Origin: Thermoplasmata archaeon
GTDB taxonomy: Archaea > Thermoplasmatota > Thermoplasmata > SG8-5
Direction: 5' to 3'
Length of the DNA stretch: 13,171 nucleotides
Assembly: GCA_023136815.1 (NCBI GenBank)
Contig: JAGLQM010000004.1
Coordinates: 1-13,171 of the forward strand
This document shows, piece by piece, positions 4,315 through 13,080 of this stretch. The translations under genes were made by a program, and so were the position numbers. The stretch's first letter is position 1. Each line of letters begins with the position of its first letter. The notes under the pieces are model-generated. The model had not been told where the DNA came from, made no database searches, and saw only the letters and a list, made by a program, of their open reading frames with translations.

Positions 4315-7300
4315 ATGATAAGAAGAGTAAGAAAAAAACATTCCAAGGACGAAGTCTTAAAGCAAATGCTGCCCCTTGTCAGGGAGTGGTTCGATACTCG
4401 TTTTGAAGGGCTGACCGAACCCCAGGCCTATGCTGTCCCTATCATTCACAAACGCCATAATGTATTGATATCTTCGCCCACTGGCTCCGGTAAAACACTG
4501 ACCGCGTTCCTGAGCATAATCAATGAGCTTCTGAACAAACAGGAGAATGACCAGCTGGAGGACAGGATATACTGTGTATATGTCTCTCCGCTGAAGGCCT
4601 TGGCCAATGATATAAACAAGAATCTCAAGCAGCCATTGGCGGAGCTTGAAGAATTGGCTGAAAAAAAAGGCATCATGAAACCCAAGATACGTGTAGCAGT
4701 CCGATCTGGTGACACAACCAACTATGAACGACAGAAAATGGCGAAGAAACCCCCTCACATTCTTATCACAACACCCGAGTCATTGGCTATTATTCTCTCA
4801 ACACCGAAATTCAGCCAGGCACTCTACACAACCGAGTGGCTCATAATGGATGAAATCCACGACATCTGCAATTCCAAGCGTGGAGTTCAACTTTCTGTGA
4901 ATCTGGAACGGTTGCAGAGCCATCTGGATGGCCAGGCAACCAGAATTGGGCTTTCTGCGACCCAGGCTCCAATCGAAGAAATTGCCAAGTATCTATCTGG
5001 CTATGACGATGATGATAAACTGCGGCCAGTAAGACTTGTTGAAGTTGATAGCAATAAGCAGATCGAAGTTACAGTCATGACACCAGTGGAAGACATGACG
5101 TCCATGCCATTCGAAATAATCAATGCCAGACTCTATGAAACACTTCGAGATATAGTAATGGAAAATACCACCACGCTGGTGTTCACCAATACTCGCAGCG
5201 GAACCGAGAATGTTCTGCTTAAACTCAGCGAACTGGGTGTTGAAAATATTGCTGCGCATCACGGCAGTTTGGCCAGGGAGACACGTCTTGATGTAGAGGA
5301 CCGGCTGAAGCGAGGCGAGTTAAAGGCAGCAGTTTCCAGTACCAGCCTTGAACTGGGTATTGACATCGGCAGCATTGACATGGTATGCCAGATCGGTTCT
5401 CCAAAATCCATTGCCAAAGGCCTTCAACGCATCGGACGGTCAGGCCACGGTTACGGCGAAGTAAGCCGCGGAAAACTTATCGCATTCGATAATGATGATT
5501 TGATGGAATGTGCCGTGCTGGCCAAGAAGGCAAGCGAGAATTATATTGACCGGGTGGACCTGCCGAAGAATTCGCTGGATGTTCTCTCCCAAACAATTGT
5601 TGGTATGTCCCTGGAAAAGGTATGGCGTGTTGACGAGGCCTATGATGTAATTCGGAAATCATATAGCTTTCATGAACTATCAAAAGCTGATTTCCTGTCT
5701 GTGGTGCATTATCTGGCCAGCCGGGACATGCCTCATGTTTACTCGAAAATATGGCTGGATGATGATACGCAGGAGTTCGGAAGAAAGCGTTCAAGCCGTC
5801 TTATTTATTATCTCAATAGCGGCACTATTCCTGAAGAAGCAAATTACAAGGTGTATTCGGATTCTGGTGGCCGCCTGGGGGAGCTTTCCGAAGGGTTCGT
5901 TGAAAAACTTTCGCCTGGTGATGTATTTGTTCTCGGCGGTAAATCATATGAATTCACCAAGGCAATGGGAATGAGCATTTTTGTCAAACCTGCTACCGGT
6001 CGGAGGCCCACAATACCATCCTGGACCGGGGAGATGATGCCTCGCAGCTTTGACCTATCGGTTGCAATAGGTCAATTCAGAGGTCAGATGGGGCAATTAG
6101 CCGCCCAGGGTAAGGACATTGGGGAATGGTTGAGAAAAACTTACCCGTTGGATCGGGGTGGTGTAAAATCCATTTTATCCTACATAACAGAACAGGTTGC
6201 ATTCAATGGGAATGTTCCATCTGATACTAATCTGCTAATGGAGGGATATCTTGATCCGAAAGGAAACTTGAATATCATTTTCCATTACTGTTTTGGCCGC
6301 CGTACAAACGATGCACTGGCCCGGGCCTATGCTATGGCCATTTCCAATAAATTCCATTGCAATGTTTCAATCACTGTCAGCGACGACTGCTTCATGCTTA
6401 CGGTTCCTCGCCGCATAAAACTCGAAGGGTTGGAAAAGCTGGTTACCCAGAATAATATAGTAAAACTTTTGGAGGAAGCAATTCGTGATACCGAGTTGTT
6501 CAAGCAGCGTTTCAGGCATTGCAGTACCCGTGGTTTCATGATCCTCAGAAATTATCAGGGTAGAGAAGTGCCAGTAGGCCGCCAGATGCAGCGGAGCCAG
6601 AAAGTTTTACGGGCACTGGAAGACCGGGATAATTTTCCAATAGTGCGCGAAACCATGAACGAGATCCTCAATGAGGCAATGAATATTACTGGTGCAAAAC
6701 AAATACTTCAAGGAATAGAGGATGGAAATATCAAGGTAAACCATGCCAGTGTTTCTGACGTTCCGTCCCCATTTGCCCATAATATCGTGCTGGTTGGCAT
6801 GTCTGATATTGTGCTGATGCACGATCGTTCAGCTTTACTGAAGGAACTTCATCGCAAGGTGCTCATGCGGGTAGGCGGTGATAAAGCCCTGGAGCCGGAA
6901 TTTGACCTTGAAATATTGAGTCAGCATTTTGCCGATAAATGGCCGAATATAGCCAGGTCTGAACATATCCCCAAGATACTGACCCAGGTTGGACCACTGG
7001 AGTTTTTCACAAGAAAAAGTGCCAGTATTTATGATTTTTCCGAATTACCTGAAGATGAACTTGCAGCAATGGCAGGCCAGCTTATCGAGTCTGGCCATGT
7101 TGCTTCAATATGGGCTGGAAGAAGCCTCTGGGCAAACCCTGATGAACTGGAAGATATGGCTGGAATTTACAGTACTGGCAAGAAGCCGGATGATGCAGGA
7201 AAGGCAATTCTTAATGCGTTAAGAGAAAAACCAAAAACCTCCCTGGCCCTGTCGAAAACTCTGGAGGCAGATGCAAGAAAAGTTCGCCGTGACCTTGGAA

Positions 7301-9732
7301 CATTGGAACGTGCTTATCTGGTGGAACGGGCCGGTCAGGATAAAAAAGGTAATGTGACATGGGGCATTCGTGAGGTTAAACCAAAAAAACCTGGCAAGCG
7401 TTTCATGGGAAAAATGCTAACAAGACATCTGGAACACTTCGCACCGCTGACAATGGACGAGCTAGCTTATGATTTGGCACTGGATAAGAACTTGTTATCC
7501 GATTTACTGGCAGAACTGGAATCTCGAGGTATTCTCTCCAGTGGTTCTTTTACCGAGCCAGATTTACAGTTTTTACTTACAGCAGACCGGATGGAGCTTC
7601 AGGGCGGCGGGAAAGAGGATATTATCCTGCAGCCCCAGGTTGAAAATTACCAACTGGCAAAGCATTGCCGTAAGATTAATAAAATCGACGATTATTTTGA
7701 CAGGTATGGCGTGGTCTGGATGCCACAGGACTTACTGGCTCGTGGAAAACCAGCCCTTTACACCAAGTGGCTGAAGCTCAGAAAGAATGGTGATGTGCTA
7801 CATGGCCGGTTTAAGGACGGCAGTGTTTGTTATGTTCGAAAGAAAGATACGCAGATGTATATTGATGCTTACCGTCGGGAAAATCTTAATGATGCTGAGG
7901 CTAGACTCCTAAACATAATTAAGGCGAACCCGGGAATTGACATGATTTCCATTGGCAAAAAGGCTGAAATTCCATCTGTTAAGGCCAAGGAATTAATGGA
8001 AAAGCTGGACCGGAACATGTTCATAATCAGAAGATTCACAGACAGGGAAAGCTGGTCTTCCACCAATCATTATCAAACGCTAGATATGGAACCAGTGCCA
8101 GAAAATAAAGATAAGGCAGTCGAGAAAATAATCAGAATCACACTGAAGGCCTATGCGCCTATTGCATTACGTTCACTGGCCTATGCGACAGGCTTTTCAA
8201 TACGCCATGTTAAAACTGTCCTTGAGCAGGATATAGCTAGCGGCAAGATTTTAGAAATACAAATTGCAGAGGGCAGTAATACAAAATTATTACTTCCGGC
8301 GGAAGAACTGGCTGCCTTGAAATCAATGCCTACTGAGGAATCAAATGATGTTCAAATCTTAACGCTTTATGATCCCCTGGTTCAGCCCCATCGGGTGGAG
8401 TTACGCCGCCGATTCGGAGATGCCTGGTACTTCCCTATTTTTCAGGGAGCCAGGCTCATCGGTATGATGGAGATGTGGGAGATGAGTGGATGCATTGACA
8501 TCCGTCAGATGATTTTGGATGAAGTTTCAGCACTGCCAGATGTATTGAGAGCATTGGATACTTTTTCAATTTATTACAGGAAGAACCTCATGGATGTCAT
8601 CAGGATTAAGAACGTCATTGGAAGCGATGTACCAGACCTTGAGCCCGATATAATCCAGATTTTCGAAAACCAGGGCTACATTCGGGTTCGGGACTGGCTG
8701 GTGAAGGGAAACGTGGTAGATACCGTAGTTAATGAAAGCCAGTTCATCAGCTATGCAGTATGGAAGAACCATGTAATGCCAAACCGCAGATTTCACAGCA
8801 TCCATGAGGGCTTGAAGGTACTTGGCGGGTTCAGATCAGATGAGGCAGCCAGCCTTCGCTGCAAAACCACTGTCCCACTAAAATCGCTCCATAAACGGGA
8901 TATTGTCGGATACGGCCAACTGATTCCGAAAGTTCTTACGTATGCACTTCCCGAGGAAATTGCACTTCAGAAGGCCGCCCTTGCAGTTAAGCCAGATAAG
9001 AACATGAATATTGTTTTGCAGATGATAAAGGAGAGAGGCCCGGTAAAGTGGAAGGAAGTTATTGATAACTCCCCGCTGGGGTATCAAAGCTCACAGGATG
9101 CGAAGCAGCGGCTTAGCGGCTCTTTGCATATTCTTCGGGATGCCCAGAACCGCTATACCCAGGGACCGGAGACCAGCATGGACAAGGATACTGCCAGGAA
9201 AGAGGTCATCAAGAGCATCTTCAAGCAATTCGGCATATTCAGTGCAGAACATCTTGCCATGTACATTAAAGGTCAATTTCGCATGTTCGAACTTCGCAGT
9301 ATTCTTGACCAGCTGGAGCTGGATGATTTTCTCACCAAGGGCTATTTCCTTGAAAGTTCGGACAGCCTTCATTGGATAGTGAAAGAGGATATGGGCCAGT
9401 TCATCAAAAAACCTGCAACGTTTCAGGTGGTCATCACCGAAAGGGATCGCCTGGGATTCTATCTTCTTCCTTTTGTCCAGAAGAGTTTTGGAATCGGTAC
9501 TTCGTGGATAGTGATAAAGGACGGACAGCTCATTGCAGCAGCCAGGATGCGCCGCAGGAAAGATGAGTTTATCATGAAGGAATTAGTTGGAGATTCGAAT
9601 GCCTGGCATACCATGAAGGCCTATTCTGCCGAACTGGGCAAACGTATGCGTCGGGAAGAGGATGAAGTTCCAGATGTTGAAGAAGATGTTGTTGACTGGT
9701 ACGAACGGTATGTGCGGCCCGGTGGGAAATGA
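4315..9732 (+). CDS. lhr: Giant Lhr-type ATP-dependent helicase with long winged-helix/beta-barrel C-terminal region
   Basis: A superfamily 2 helicase of 1,805 residues. Motifs in order: Q-like TEPQAYAVP (34-42), Walker A SPTGSGKT (54-61), TTPES (152-156), DEIH box (179-182), SAT (214-216), VFTNTRS (289-295), STSLELGIDIG (342-352) and QRIGRSGH (371-378). The Lhr-core fourth domain follows to about residue 855, with RFRHCSTRGFMIL near 731 and PSPFAHN near 818. The remaining 950 residues hold several winged-helix-like segments (about 963-1022, 1034-1078, 1197-1242, 1269-1316, 1564-1600, 1630-1680) and two beta-rich segments. The one near 1350-1390 (YDPLVQPHR, then FGDAWYFPIFQGARLIG) resembles the AlkZ/YcaQ-like part of bacterial Lhr C-terminal domains. 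Lhr proteins unwind 3'-tailed DNA and RNA:DNA and are linked to repair. Archaeal Lhr-core is usually near 900 residues and E. coli Lhr about 1,540, so this is unusually long. The ATG follows GGAG by 10 bases. Confidence 0.93.
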   Translation: MIRRVRKKHSKDEVLKQMLPLVREWFDTRFEGLTEPQAYAVPIIHKRHNVLISSPTGSGKTLTAFLSIINELLNKQENDQLEDRIYCVYVSPLKALANDINKNLKQPLAELEELAEKKGIMKPKIRVAVRSGDTTNYERQKMAKKPPHILITTPESLAIILSTPKFSQALYTTEWLIMDEIHDICNSKRGVQLSVNLERLQSHLDGQATRIGLSATQAPIEEIAKYLSGYDDDDKLRPVRLVEVDSNKQIEVTVMTPVEDMTSMPFEIINARLYETLRDIVMENTTTLVFTNTRSGTENVLLKLSELGVENIAAHHGSLARETRLDVEDRLKRGELKAAVSSTSLELGIDIGSIDMVCQIGSPKSIAKGLQRIGRSGHGYGEVSRGKLIAFDNDDLMECAVLAKKASENYIDRVDLPKNSLDVLSQTIVGMSLEKVWRVDEAYDVIRKSYSFHELSKADFLSVVHYLASRDMPHVYSKIWLDDDTQEFGRKRSSRLIYYLNSGTIPEEANYKVYSDSGGRLGELSEGFVEKLSPGDVFVLGGKSYEFTKAMGMSIFVKPATGRRPTIPSWTGEMMPRSFDLSVAIGQFRGQMGQLAAQGKDIGEWLRKTYPLDRGGVKSILSYITEQVAFNGNVPSDTNLLMEGYLDPKGNLNIIFHYCFGRRTNDALARAYAMAISNKFHCNVSITVSDDCFMLTVPRRIKLEGLEKLVTQNNIVKLLEEAIRDTELFKQRFRHCSTRGFMILRNYQGREVPVGRQMQRSQKVLRALEDRDNFPIVRETMNEILNEAMNITGAKQILQGIEDGNIKVNHASVSDVPSPFAHNIVLVGMSDIVLMHDRSALLKELHRKVLMRVGGDKALEPEFDLEILSQHFADKWPNIARSEHIPKILTQVGPLEFFTRKSASIYDFSELPEDELAAMAGQLIESGHVASIWAGRSLWANPDELEDMAGIYSTGKKPDDAGKAILNALREKPKTSLALSKTLEADARKVRRDLGTLERAYLVERAGQDKKGNVTWGIREVKPKKPGKRFMGKMLTRHLEHFAPLTMDELAYDLALDKNLLSDLLAELESRGILSSGSFTEPDLQFLLTADRMELQGGGKEDIILQPQVENYQLAKHCRKINKIDDYFDRYGVVWMPQDLLARGKPALYTKWLKLRKNGDVLHGRFKDGSVCYVRKKDTQMYIDAYRRENLNDAEARLLNIIKANPGIDMISIGKKAEIPSVKAKELMEKLDRNMFIIRRFTDRESWSSTNHYQTLDMEPVPENKDKAVEKIIRITLKAYAPIALRSLAYATGFSIRHVKTVLEQDIASGKILEIQIAEGSNTKLLLPAEELAALKSMPTEESNDVQILTLYDPLVQPHRVELRRRFGDAWYFPIFQGARLIGMMEMWEMSGCIDIRQMILDEVSALPDVLRALDTFSIYYRKNLMDVIRIKNVIGSDVPDLEPDIIQIFENQGYIRVRDWLVKGNVVDTVVNESQFISYAVWKNHVMPNRRFHSIHEGLKVLGGFRSDEAASLRCKTTVPLKSLHKRDIVGYGQLIPKVLTYALPEEIALQKAALAVKPDKNMNIVLQMIKERGPVKWKEVIDNSPLGYQSSQDAKQRLSGSLHILRDAQNRYTQGPETSMDKDTARKEVIKSIFKQFGIFSAEHLAMYIKGQFRMFELRSILDQLELDDFLTKGYFLESSDSLHWIVKEDMGQFIKKPATFQVVITERDRLGFYLLPFVQKSFGIGTSWIVIKDGQLIAAARMRRRKDEFIMKELVGDSNAWHTMKAYSAELGKRMRREEDEVPDVEEDVVDWYERYVRPGGK

Positions 9733-9913: not shown

Positions 9914-9988
9914 TGGGCCCACCCGGATTTGAACCGGGGTCTATAGCTCCCAAAGCTACAAGTATAGGCCAAGCTAGCCCATGGGCCC
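9914..9988 (-). tRNA. tRNA-Pro (anticodon UGG)
   Basis: A 75-base tRNA. The acceptor arms GGGCCCA and TGGGCCC pair fully, with A as discriminator and no encoded CCA. The anticodon stem GTAGC/GCTAT closes the loop TTTGGGA, giving UGG at 34-36 and G37 as in proline tRNAs. The T arm is CCCGG-TTCAAAT-CCGGG. U8, A14, G15, G18 and G19 are in place. The D stem is poor: only G10-U25 and G11-C24 pair, with C12/A23 opposed, and the D loop is long. It decodes CCA and, by wobble, other CCN codons. The 5' end abuts a hairpin cluster. Confidence 0.88.
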
Positions 9989-10343: not shown

Positions 10344-10721
10344 ATGGTAAAATCAATACGAATAGGCTATACCATTGCCTCTGTGATTTGTACAATACTG
10401 ATGATTGTACTGATGTTTGCGAATATCTATCCATGCGGATACTGGGGCCAGACCCAATTGTATGAGGACAAAGGCTATGCTGGCCATGGTTATCATTCCC
10501 TGGCAGAGGTAGTGGGTAACGGATTTTTTTGGGATGCAGATGATGTGCCAGAACCATATGAGAAATACAATGGAGATGGGCCGTACTATGTCATGGGCCA
10601 GTGGTGGATTTCGGTGCTATACATTCCGACGTTCCTTGGAATAATCTATCTGGGATGGCTAATTGCTGGCGGTCGGGAAAGATTATTATTCTTCTTTCCA
10701 GGAAGTCAAAAGAACACCTAA
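10344..10721 (+). CDS. Small two-helix membrane protein of unknown function
   Basis: A 125-residue protein I do not recognise. Membrane helices are predicted at about residues 7-28 (YTIASVICTILMIVLMFA) and 88-108 (WISVLYIPTFLGIIYLGWLI). The 60-residue segment between them is rich in Gly, Tyr and acidic residues (GYAGHGYHS, DADDVPEPYEKYNGDGP), and both ends are likely cytoplasmic, with a basic N-terminus and GGRER after helix 2. The start is well supported by AGGAGG at 10331-10336, seven bases before the ATG. The gene converges on the ABC permease and their 3' ends overlap by 36 bases. Nothing shows a functional link to the exporter. Confidence 0.72.
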   Translation: MVKSIRIGYTIASVICTILMIVLMFANIYPCGYWGQTQLYEDKGYAGHGYHSLAEVVGNGFFWDADDVPEPYEKYNGDGPYYVMGQWWISVLYIPTFLGIIYLGWLIAGGRERLLFFFPGSQKNT

Positions 10722-12128
10722 AATGAACACAGCCAATCCAAATATGCCTATGACAATTGCACACTCCAGGATAATATCCATATCCAGTGAAATCATTGCT
10801 GCCCTGAGGCCCTCGTTCACATAGTAGAGCGGTAAGAATTTGGCCAGGGTTTGCAGGAAGTCTGGCATCATCTCAAGCTGGAAGAATGTGCCTGAGAGGA
10901 ACATCATTGGAAACATTACTGCATTTGCAGCTGCCTGGGCGGATTCTGCTTCCTTCACGAACCGGGTTATGAGCATTCCTATACCAGCAAAAGCAAACAC
11001 ATTCAGCAGAATGAAGATGAACATGAAGATGTTTATGTGTGGCCGAAGTCCGAATATACCCATTCCAACAGCCAGAATACATGCGGTGGATAGCATTGCC
11101 ATGAACATCTGGTACAATATGTTAGAAATAAGCCATTCACTTCTGGTCAATGGGGTTGTAGCCAGCTTTTTCAGGATACCTTTCTGCCTGAGCTCAGTGT
11201 TCATTCCAACGGTTCCGAAAAGGGCACTGGACATGACAGACATTGCTATTATGCCCGGCGCAAAGAAATCAATAAAATTGAATTTCTCCGAGGTGACATC
11301 ATTAGCCTCAATCAAGATAATATCCTTGGCACCACTGAGTCCTTTGTTGAGGCCATCGATCATTGAACGGATAATTTGCACCTTGGTCTGGGCCGAAGAT
11401 TCCGTCGGATCATAGTAAATAGAAAGATTTAGCGCAGGATGTGCTTCAATCTCATAGGTCATTGCCTGGACAGTGTAGTTCAGAGCATTGCCCAGTTCCA
11501 TGAGTGCCAGATTGGAGTAGTTCAAGGATTCGCCTGTTGAACCCAGGCTCATGCCAGTATAATTCAGAGCATTGCCTGTACTCCCCAGTGCCTGAAGGGT
11601 TAATCCCATGGAATTCGGCGATGAAAGGTTGGTTGCCTGTACCAGATAATCCATTGCCTCGGTTGAATAGTTCAGGGATGACTGGCTATAGGCTATTGAA
11701 TCAACCGAGCCATTTAGAACCATGATTGTGTGATTCATTGCCTCTGATGTTGCAGTGAGGGCCTGCCCCAGATAATGATAGGTGGTTTCGGTATTGTTTA
11801 TTTGTTCAGAGAAGCCAGCTGGTATCACAAGCATAGTATTATGGCCTGATGAGTTGAGATATTCATTGGGATTCTTGCTTACATCCACAACTATAATTTC
11901 AAAGACACCAGAATCATTCATGCCGTCTATGAAATGATTGGACCAGTATCCGCCATCATGATCCTGTACTGGCAATTGATATGTTATGTCATCCACACCT
12001 GAAAAGATGGCTCCGAACAGAAGCATCAGCAAAATTGGGAACAGCAGCACGAAGAAGATGGTACTCTTTTCCCTGAAGAACTGTTTAATGTGAACAGTTA
12101 AGTTGGCAAGCACTCTTTTGAGATTCAT
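10686..12128 (-). CDS. ABC-2 type transporter permease with glycosylation-sequon-rich ectodomain
   Basis: A 480-residue membrane subunit of an ABC exporter. Residues 22-44 are the first membrane helix (IFFVLLFPILLMLLFGAIF). Residues about 45-285 form a large outward domain, and five helices follow from about 287 to 473, with the cytoplasmic coupling stretch MNTELRQKGILKKLATTPLTRSEW (309-332) typical of ABC-2 permeases. The ectodomain contains 11 N-X-S/T sequons between residues 71 and 234, several spaced by exactly 14 residues (139, 153, 167 and 189, 203, 217), within helix-like repeats such as LGSTGNALNYT / LGSTGESLNYS. The start ATG overlaps the ATPase stop as ATGA, giving translational coupling. 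The cargo is unknown; the family includes drug, lipid and polysaccharide exporters. Confidence 0.88.
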   Translation of the reverse strand: MNLKRVLANLTVHIKQFFREKSTIFFVLLFPILLMLLFGAIFSGVDDITYQLPVQDHDGGYWSNHFIDGMNDSGVFEIIVVDVSKNPNEYLNSSGHNTMLVIPAGFSEQINNTETTYHYLGQALTATSEAMNHTIMVLNGSVDSIAYSQSSLNYSTEAMDYLVQATNLSSPNSMGLTLQALGSTGNALNYTGMSLGSTGESLNYSNLALMELGNALNYTVQAMTYEIEAHPALNLSIYYDPTESSAQTKVQIIRSMIDGLNKGLSGAKDIILIEANDVTSEKFNFIDFFAPGIIAMSVMSSALFGTVGMNTELRQKGILKKLATTPLTRSEWLISNILYQMFMAMLSTACILAVGMGIFGLRPHINIFMFIFILLNVFAFAGIGMLITRFVKEAESAQAAANAVMFPMMFLSGTFFQLEMMPDFLQTLAKFLPLYYVNEGLRAAMISLDMDIILECAIVIGIFGLAVFILGVLLTSWKEE

Positions 12129-13057
12129 TCGGCATCATCTCTCTGATTTGTGAGTGTCTCACCAGTAAGTGCAAGGAACAATTCCTCAAGATTTGGCTTG
12201 CGTATGTCCATGCTTAGGTAAGATACGTTTTTTAATTTCAGATTATTAAGAAATTCAATAATTTGGTCATTATCTGCAGCCTCGACAGTGACATTACCAT
12301 TCTCTATTGATTTTACTGGCATGTCCATCTCCCTGGCTATCTGGCTGACATCTTCATTGGCTCCCTTTATTTTCACATTGATTCTCTTGAAATGCTTGTC
12401 TATGAGTTCGTTTGTGGTGCCATAGGCAATGATTTTTCCCTTGGAGATGATTGCAATATAATCAGCCAAGACTTCCGCCTCTTCCATGTAATGTGTTGTC
12501 AGAAAGATTGTTTTTCCCTATGCTCTGAGGCCACTGATTACGTCCCATACATCATGTCTTGCCCTGGGATCAAGACCAGTGGTTGGTTCATCAAGAAAAA
12601 CAATTTCAGGATTGTTCACCAGAGAAACTGCAATCCCAACCCTCTGTTTCAAACCGCCGGAGAGATTCATGTAAAGCTGTTTACGGTGCTCCTCCAGATT
12701 AACAAGTTTTATGAGTTTTTCAATGTCACAATCTGTGGAAAATAAATCACCATAATACCTGATTGTCTCCTCAATTGTGAGACGGTCAAATGATGAAAAA
12801 TCCTGCGGCAGAATGCCGATACGTTTGAGTATCTCCGCCCTTCCCTTGTGAACGTCCATACCCAGAATTTCGATTGAGCCGGATGTAGGAGTGCGGAGAG
12901 TTTCTATCATTTCCAGTGTTGTGGTTTTGCCTGCGCCATTTGGCCCCAGGAAAGCGAATACTTCTCCTTTCTCAACATCGAAGGTTATGGTGTCAACTGC
13001 CCTTAGATCACCGTAAACCTTCACAAGATCCTTAACCTTGATGACGTCATCTACCAT
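12125..13057 (-). CDS. ABC transporter ATP-binding protein, interrupted by one in-frame TAG at codon 180
   Basis: The nucleotide-binding subunit of the exporter, 310 codons plus stop. Motifs are Walker A GPNGAGKT (38-45), Q-loop Gln85, signature LSGGLKQR (132-139), Walker B IVFLDE (152-157), D-loop GLDP (161-164) and H-loop His189. A C-terminal DUF4162-like region follows (about 215-305), as in DrrA-type ATPases. A single TAG (12520-12518) stands at codon 180 in GLRA-TAG-GKTIFLTTH, where relatives usually carry Glu, Lys or Gln. Frame and motifs continue undisturbed on both sides. It is therefore a recoded gene, a very recent pseudogene, or carries a sequencing error. Without readthrough the product lacks the H-loop and would not hydrolyse ATP. 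ATG 13057 is preferred: no Shine-Dalgarno precedes it, but a TATA box about 25-31 bases upstream fits a leaderless mRNA. Confidence 0.85.
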
Positions 13058-13080
13058 TGAGCGACTGTACAATTTCGTAA

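Follow-up and report, generated by a model that had tools for sequence, protein, structure and literature searches.

Among the data examined, the TAG within the ATPase gene described here is a lone nonsense codon, found in this draft assembly only, in what is otherwise an ordinary two-gene ABC-2 type exporter, and we are highly confident that TAG is read as a stop. The window (the whole stretch of DNA analysed, 13,171 bases) carries the ATPase gene on the minus strand at 12125-13057, followed by an uninterrupted ABC-2 permease gene, also on the minus strand (10686..12128). The TAG (12518..12520, minus strand) is codon 180 of the ATPase gene counting from the ATG at 13057, or codon 185 if counted from an in-frame upstream TTG at 13072. 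It divides the gene into an upstream part of 179 codons (12521..13057, minus) with Walker A, signature, Walker B and D-loop, and a downstream part (12125..12517, minus) with the H-loop, the C-terminal domain and a terminal TGA. That TGA overlaps the ATG of the permease as ATGA at 12125-12128. The corresponding ATPase match in the organism's own genome (G000:C145) has the identical TAG.

The two parts share one reading frame, and the read-through frame aligns with transporter ATPase profiles and proteins across almost its entire length. The motifs occur in the order Walker A (GPNGAGKT), signature (LSGG), Walker B and D-loop (FLDEPTTGLD) and H-loop (TTH); these names are presumed assignments to the letters of the gene. 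In an alignment of 40 sequences (the ATPase and 39 database proteins) the motif columns show little or no variation. All five motifs are thus in a single frame, as expected of ABC transporter ATPases in general, with the H-loop cut off from the others by the TAG. The open segment 3' of the TAG comprises 130 codons and has a codon-use score of 0.33 bits per codon, barely over the 0.3 bits per codon that we set as the threshold for coding-like sequence. Because this segment aligns with relatives, the interruption of a gene is real rather than a chance juxtaposition. The initial annotation had described an in-frame TAG inside an otherwise intact ABC ATPase, with both segments in one frame, the expected motifs in order and an ATGA overlap with the permease. 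Frame, motifs and the alignment with 39 proteins agree with this description on each point. The stop codon itself is real, was correctly described and most likely has an ordinary explanation.

The strongest evidence on the origin of the TAG comes from an intact protein already on record. The read-through frame was searched against about 5.8 billion public proteins, of which 8,000 candidates were scored. The best match, P0001 (310 aa), is recorded on two contigs, the longest of 16,252 bases. It equals the read-through frame at all aligned residues save the TAG column, where P0001 has glutamate. Since the window contig is 13,171 bases long, at least one of the P0001 contigs should come from another assembly. 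From the protein identity and the longer contig, P0001 would appear to belong to the same strain as the window. The permease likewise has a 100% identical protein of 480 aa on record; its contig is 3,778 bases long. This suggests that other assemblies also contain the species. Both P0001 and the permease match carry the source '-', a mark described for proteins encoded by the window, yet at the one column the window has TAG and P0001 has glutamate.

An intact and otherwise identical protein is what would be found if the TAG were a consensus error, made in the sequencing or assembly of this draft metagenome-assembled genome, an explanation to which we give an even chance. The assembly is a draft of 210 contigs and 949,536 bases that is 61% complete, and the change is isolated, with the rest of the gene undamaged. 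Against an error, the draft is not obviously error-ridden: a 247-kb sample of it yielded no further gene interrupted by a clean in-frame stop, in a test that misses short extensions and frameshifts. The other explanation that we take seriously, with a probability somewhat below one half, is a genuine nonsense mutation that recently inactivated the ATPase, perhaps as a minority allele picked by the assembler. The ATPase gene shows no other damage, and the permease equals another recorded protein throughout; a loss this recent would be expected to look exactly so. A search with the 179-residue fragment gave, among the 120 matches listed of 660, a sole 100% identical match, which was full-length P0001. 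The absence of a second truncated copy among those 120 counts against a genuine mutation, if weakly, as the truncated protein of the window itself is also missing from them; it tips the balance a little towards an error or a rare allele. All of the tests would nonetheless be compatible with a TAG allele that truly exists and is widespread in the population sampled.

We also examined the column of the TAG in relatives. The best 39 database proteins of the 120 listed, P0001 included, have glutamate in 31 cases, lysine in four, glutamine in three and aspartate in one. Among 18 genome loci the residues are glutamate (12), arginine (3), serine (1), glutamine (1) and glycine (1); a nineteenth fetched locus, L017, was omitted as its fragment stops short of the column. 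A stop at this position was found in none of the 39 proteins aligned and in none of the 18 loci. Some sequences apparently occur both among the loci and among the database proteins, which means that the counts cannot be treated as independent. A dN/dS ratio could be used for two same-genus loci only, the other correctly oriented rows being saturated. Relative to L002 the ratio was 0.052 in the upstream half and 0.081 in the downstream half, and relative to L003 it was 0.112 and 0.124, respectively; in both comparisons the downstream value is a little above the upstream one. Both halves of the ATPase are therefore under purifying constraint in the comparison with these two same-genus genomes, and the interruption is either young or not real.

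These relatives bear directly on the idea that the TAG is a conserved regulatory stop, through programmed readthrough or a split, two-part ATPase. An ATG 11 codons 3' of the TAG does begin a frame of 120 aa. However, the downstream part by itself has no Walker A, signature or Walker B, and the lack of a stop at this column in every relative examined refutes a conserved feature. We regard such a role as improbable in the extreme. Two other observations concern stops in ABC ATPase matches of relatives. One TGA is present inside the match in each of two genomes (G019:C32:4333-5256 and G008:C186:337-1095). In a further relative of the class, G022, two TAGs within the ATPase match were considered as interruptions and rejected, both being by eye beyond the likely end of its protein; TAG is the commonest stop in G022 (37 of 87 ORFs in an 18-contig sample).

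A further explanation is that the organism decodes TAG as pyrrolysine (Pyl), or as another amino acid via a CUA tRNA. We think this very improbable. P0001 is strongly contrary to it, as are a column that is mostly glutamate and the relatives examined, which have no stop there. The use of TAG elsewhere in the genome points the same way. ORFs of at least 100 aa were counted mechanically in 41 of the 210 contigs, which span 247,274 of the 949,536 bases and were picked by their numbers and, in part, for the tRNAs on them. The 182 ORFs sampled, which include the interrupted ATPase gene, end in TAG in 40 cases (22%), in TAA in 64 and in TGA in 78. From this terminator use, TAG works as an ordinary stop in the organism. 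For comparison, PMC3941956 gives amber as at most 11% of stops in three Pyl-using methanogens of the seventh order. The paper also states that bacteria with Pyl show no avoidance of TAG as a stop codon. Frequent TAG stops therefore do not exclude Pyl, and the 22% seen here is an indication rather than proof against it.

The initial annotation had proposed that in-frame TAG codons be counted in conserved genes. Of the 40 TAG-ended ORFs in the 41 contigs, five had an extension of at least 40 codons past the TAG, and in only one, the ATPase gene, was it coding-like; further such genes may lie on the other contigs. The only other coding-like extension, past a TGA in L080 (0.31 bits per codon), was rejected as an interruption, as by eye it seems to comprise two neighbouring genes (presumably UspA-like and RpiA-like).

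The genes for pyrrolysine use were searched for directly. Both PylS and PylD were over the cut-off in two of 41 genomes, the same two of family f8, which are in the same class as the genome of the window; PMC3941956 names the Methanomassiliicoccales as known Pyl users. The presence of Pyl users within the class is thus in favour of decoding, as is the completeness of the genome itself (61%), which means that genes may be missing. Nonetheless, PylS in the own genome reached at best 38.3 bits against a cut-off of 178.15, PylD was also below its cut-off, and neither protein passed in any of the 12 other genomes of the order (drafts that, for the order as searched, are 59-92% complete). This includes two relatives of the same genus (85% and 77% complete), in which PylS and PylD were both below cut-off. 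In the control set, one of 14 genomes was over the cut-off with PylS and likewise one of 14 with PylD. The N-domain of PylC (PF21360) had no match in the own genome, which is a weak test given that six of the 14 controls were positive; among these six we take Methanosarcina acetivorans alone to be a Pyl user. PF21360 was therefore dropped in favour of the PylS and PylD models.

A tRNA with a CUA anticodon was absent from the 13 tRNAs found in the 61%-complete own genome, two doubtful ones being typed by eye, and from the 24 tRNAs typed by ARAGORN (of 25 matches) in G002, a genome of the same genus. The tRNA set of the own genome is incomplete, and the general tRNA model may miss tRNA-Pyl. Because the genome is 61% complete, the absences of pyl genes and of a CUA tRNA are supporting rather than final evidence, and the case is borne by the intact protein and the relatives. 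A search of the literature from 2024 onwards for the archaeal pyrrolysine 'Pyl code' found no paper. The initial annotation had offered three options and had named pylS, pylD and a CUA tRNA among the things to look for. The two genes were not over the cut-off in the own genome or in the 12 others of its order, and the tRNA was not among the 13 found in the own genome. A sequencing error and a fresh nonsense mutation both stay viable, whilst decoding of TAG is left unsupported, with glutamate in P0001 and TAG serving as a normal stop. In a variant of decoding, the missing 39% of the genome would encode an amber suppressor tRNA specific to the strain. This TAG would then be read in some cells and the change tolerated, although TAG is otherwise a stop; this too we judge to have very little probability.

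The tRNA searches also gave some side observations. A tRNA-like gene with a long variable arm is present in the own genome (L048:600-692, minus strand; G000:C138) and in L115, L116, L117, L118 and L113 (1058-1128). Its anticodon is GAA in the own genome, G003, G007 and G009, CAG in G011 and, by eye, GAA in G002. The body, with a G after the acceptor stem, is one that we take to be Ser-like; G000 and G002 additionally have an ordinary tRNA-Phe(GAA). RNAalifold, applied to five copies, predicted a stem in which the anticodon letters pair with the variable arm. Seven pairs had two-sided changes, of which four are in acceptor and T stems common to the cloverleaf and three are specific to this fold, the only one scored. 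In the G002 copy the similarity breaks down in the T arm. Candidate identities for the gene are an RNA derived from a tRNA but not used in decoding, a tRNA whose anticodon is unusual, and a tRNA that was typed wrongly. An intron-bearing tRNA (L050:3996-4119) was typed by ARAGORN as Leu(AAG); by eye, the anticodon looks to be TAA, with the intron following the loop. Elsewhere in the window, an ORF of 1,805 aa (4315-9732) has helicase-like motifs by eye and is presumably an Lhr-type large helicase. A tRNA-Pro (TGG) is encoded on the minus strand at 9914-9988, 182 bases beyond the end of that ORF.

The consequence for the cell depends on which of the two ordinary explanations applies. The host is an uncultured Thermoplasmata-type archaeon in which TAG is read as a stop. 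Should some cells truly carry the TAG, translation there would yield an ATPase fragment of 179 residues that lacks both the H-loop and the C-terminal domain; such a product would not be expected to function as an ATPase, and the exporter would be off. With a consensus error, the gene would simply be intact. Were TAG decoded after all, Pyl use or amber suppression would extend to a group in which our searches for PylS and PylD found none; the evidence speaks for the opposite. The case is therefore a caution: given common TAG stops and an intact twin protein, a draft archaeal genome with a single clean in-frame TAG offers no evidence for recoding.

The locus can finally be compared with two known systems. 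With the Pyl-decoding archaea (Methanosarcinaceae and Methanomassiliicoccales) it shares an in-frame TAG in an archaeal gene and a class that includes Pyl users. It differs from them in that no PylS, PylD or CUA tRNA was found here, in an order without PylS or PylD over the cut-off, and in that TAG is a common stop in this genome; moreover, the interrupted gene is no methylamine methyltransferase. The other system is the DrrA group of ABC-2 type exporter ATPases (NCBIfam TIGR01188). The relatives examined have no TAG at the column where the window ATPase has one, and the score of the read-through frame, 273.7 bits, is below the curated cut-off of 312.45, so that the protein is of the same general kind without being named DrrA. 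The frame aligns with the whole of the DrrA profile, and the permease behind the ATPase has DrrB as its best match.
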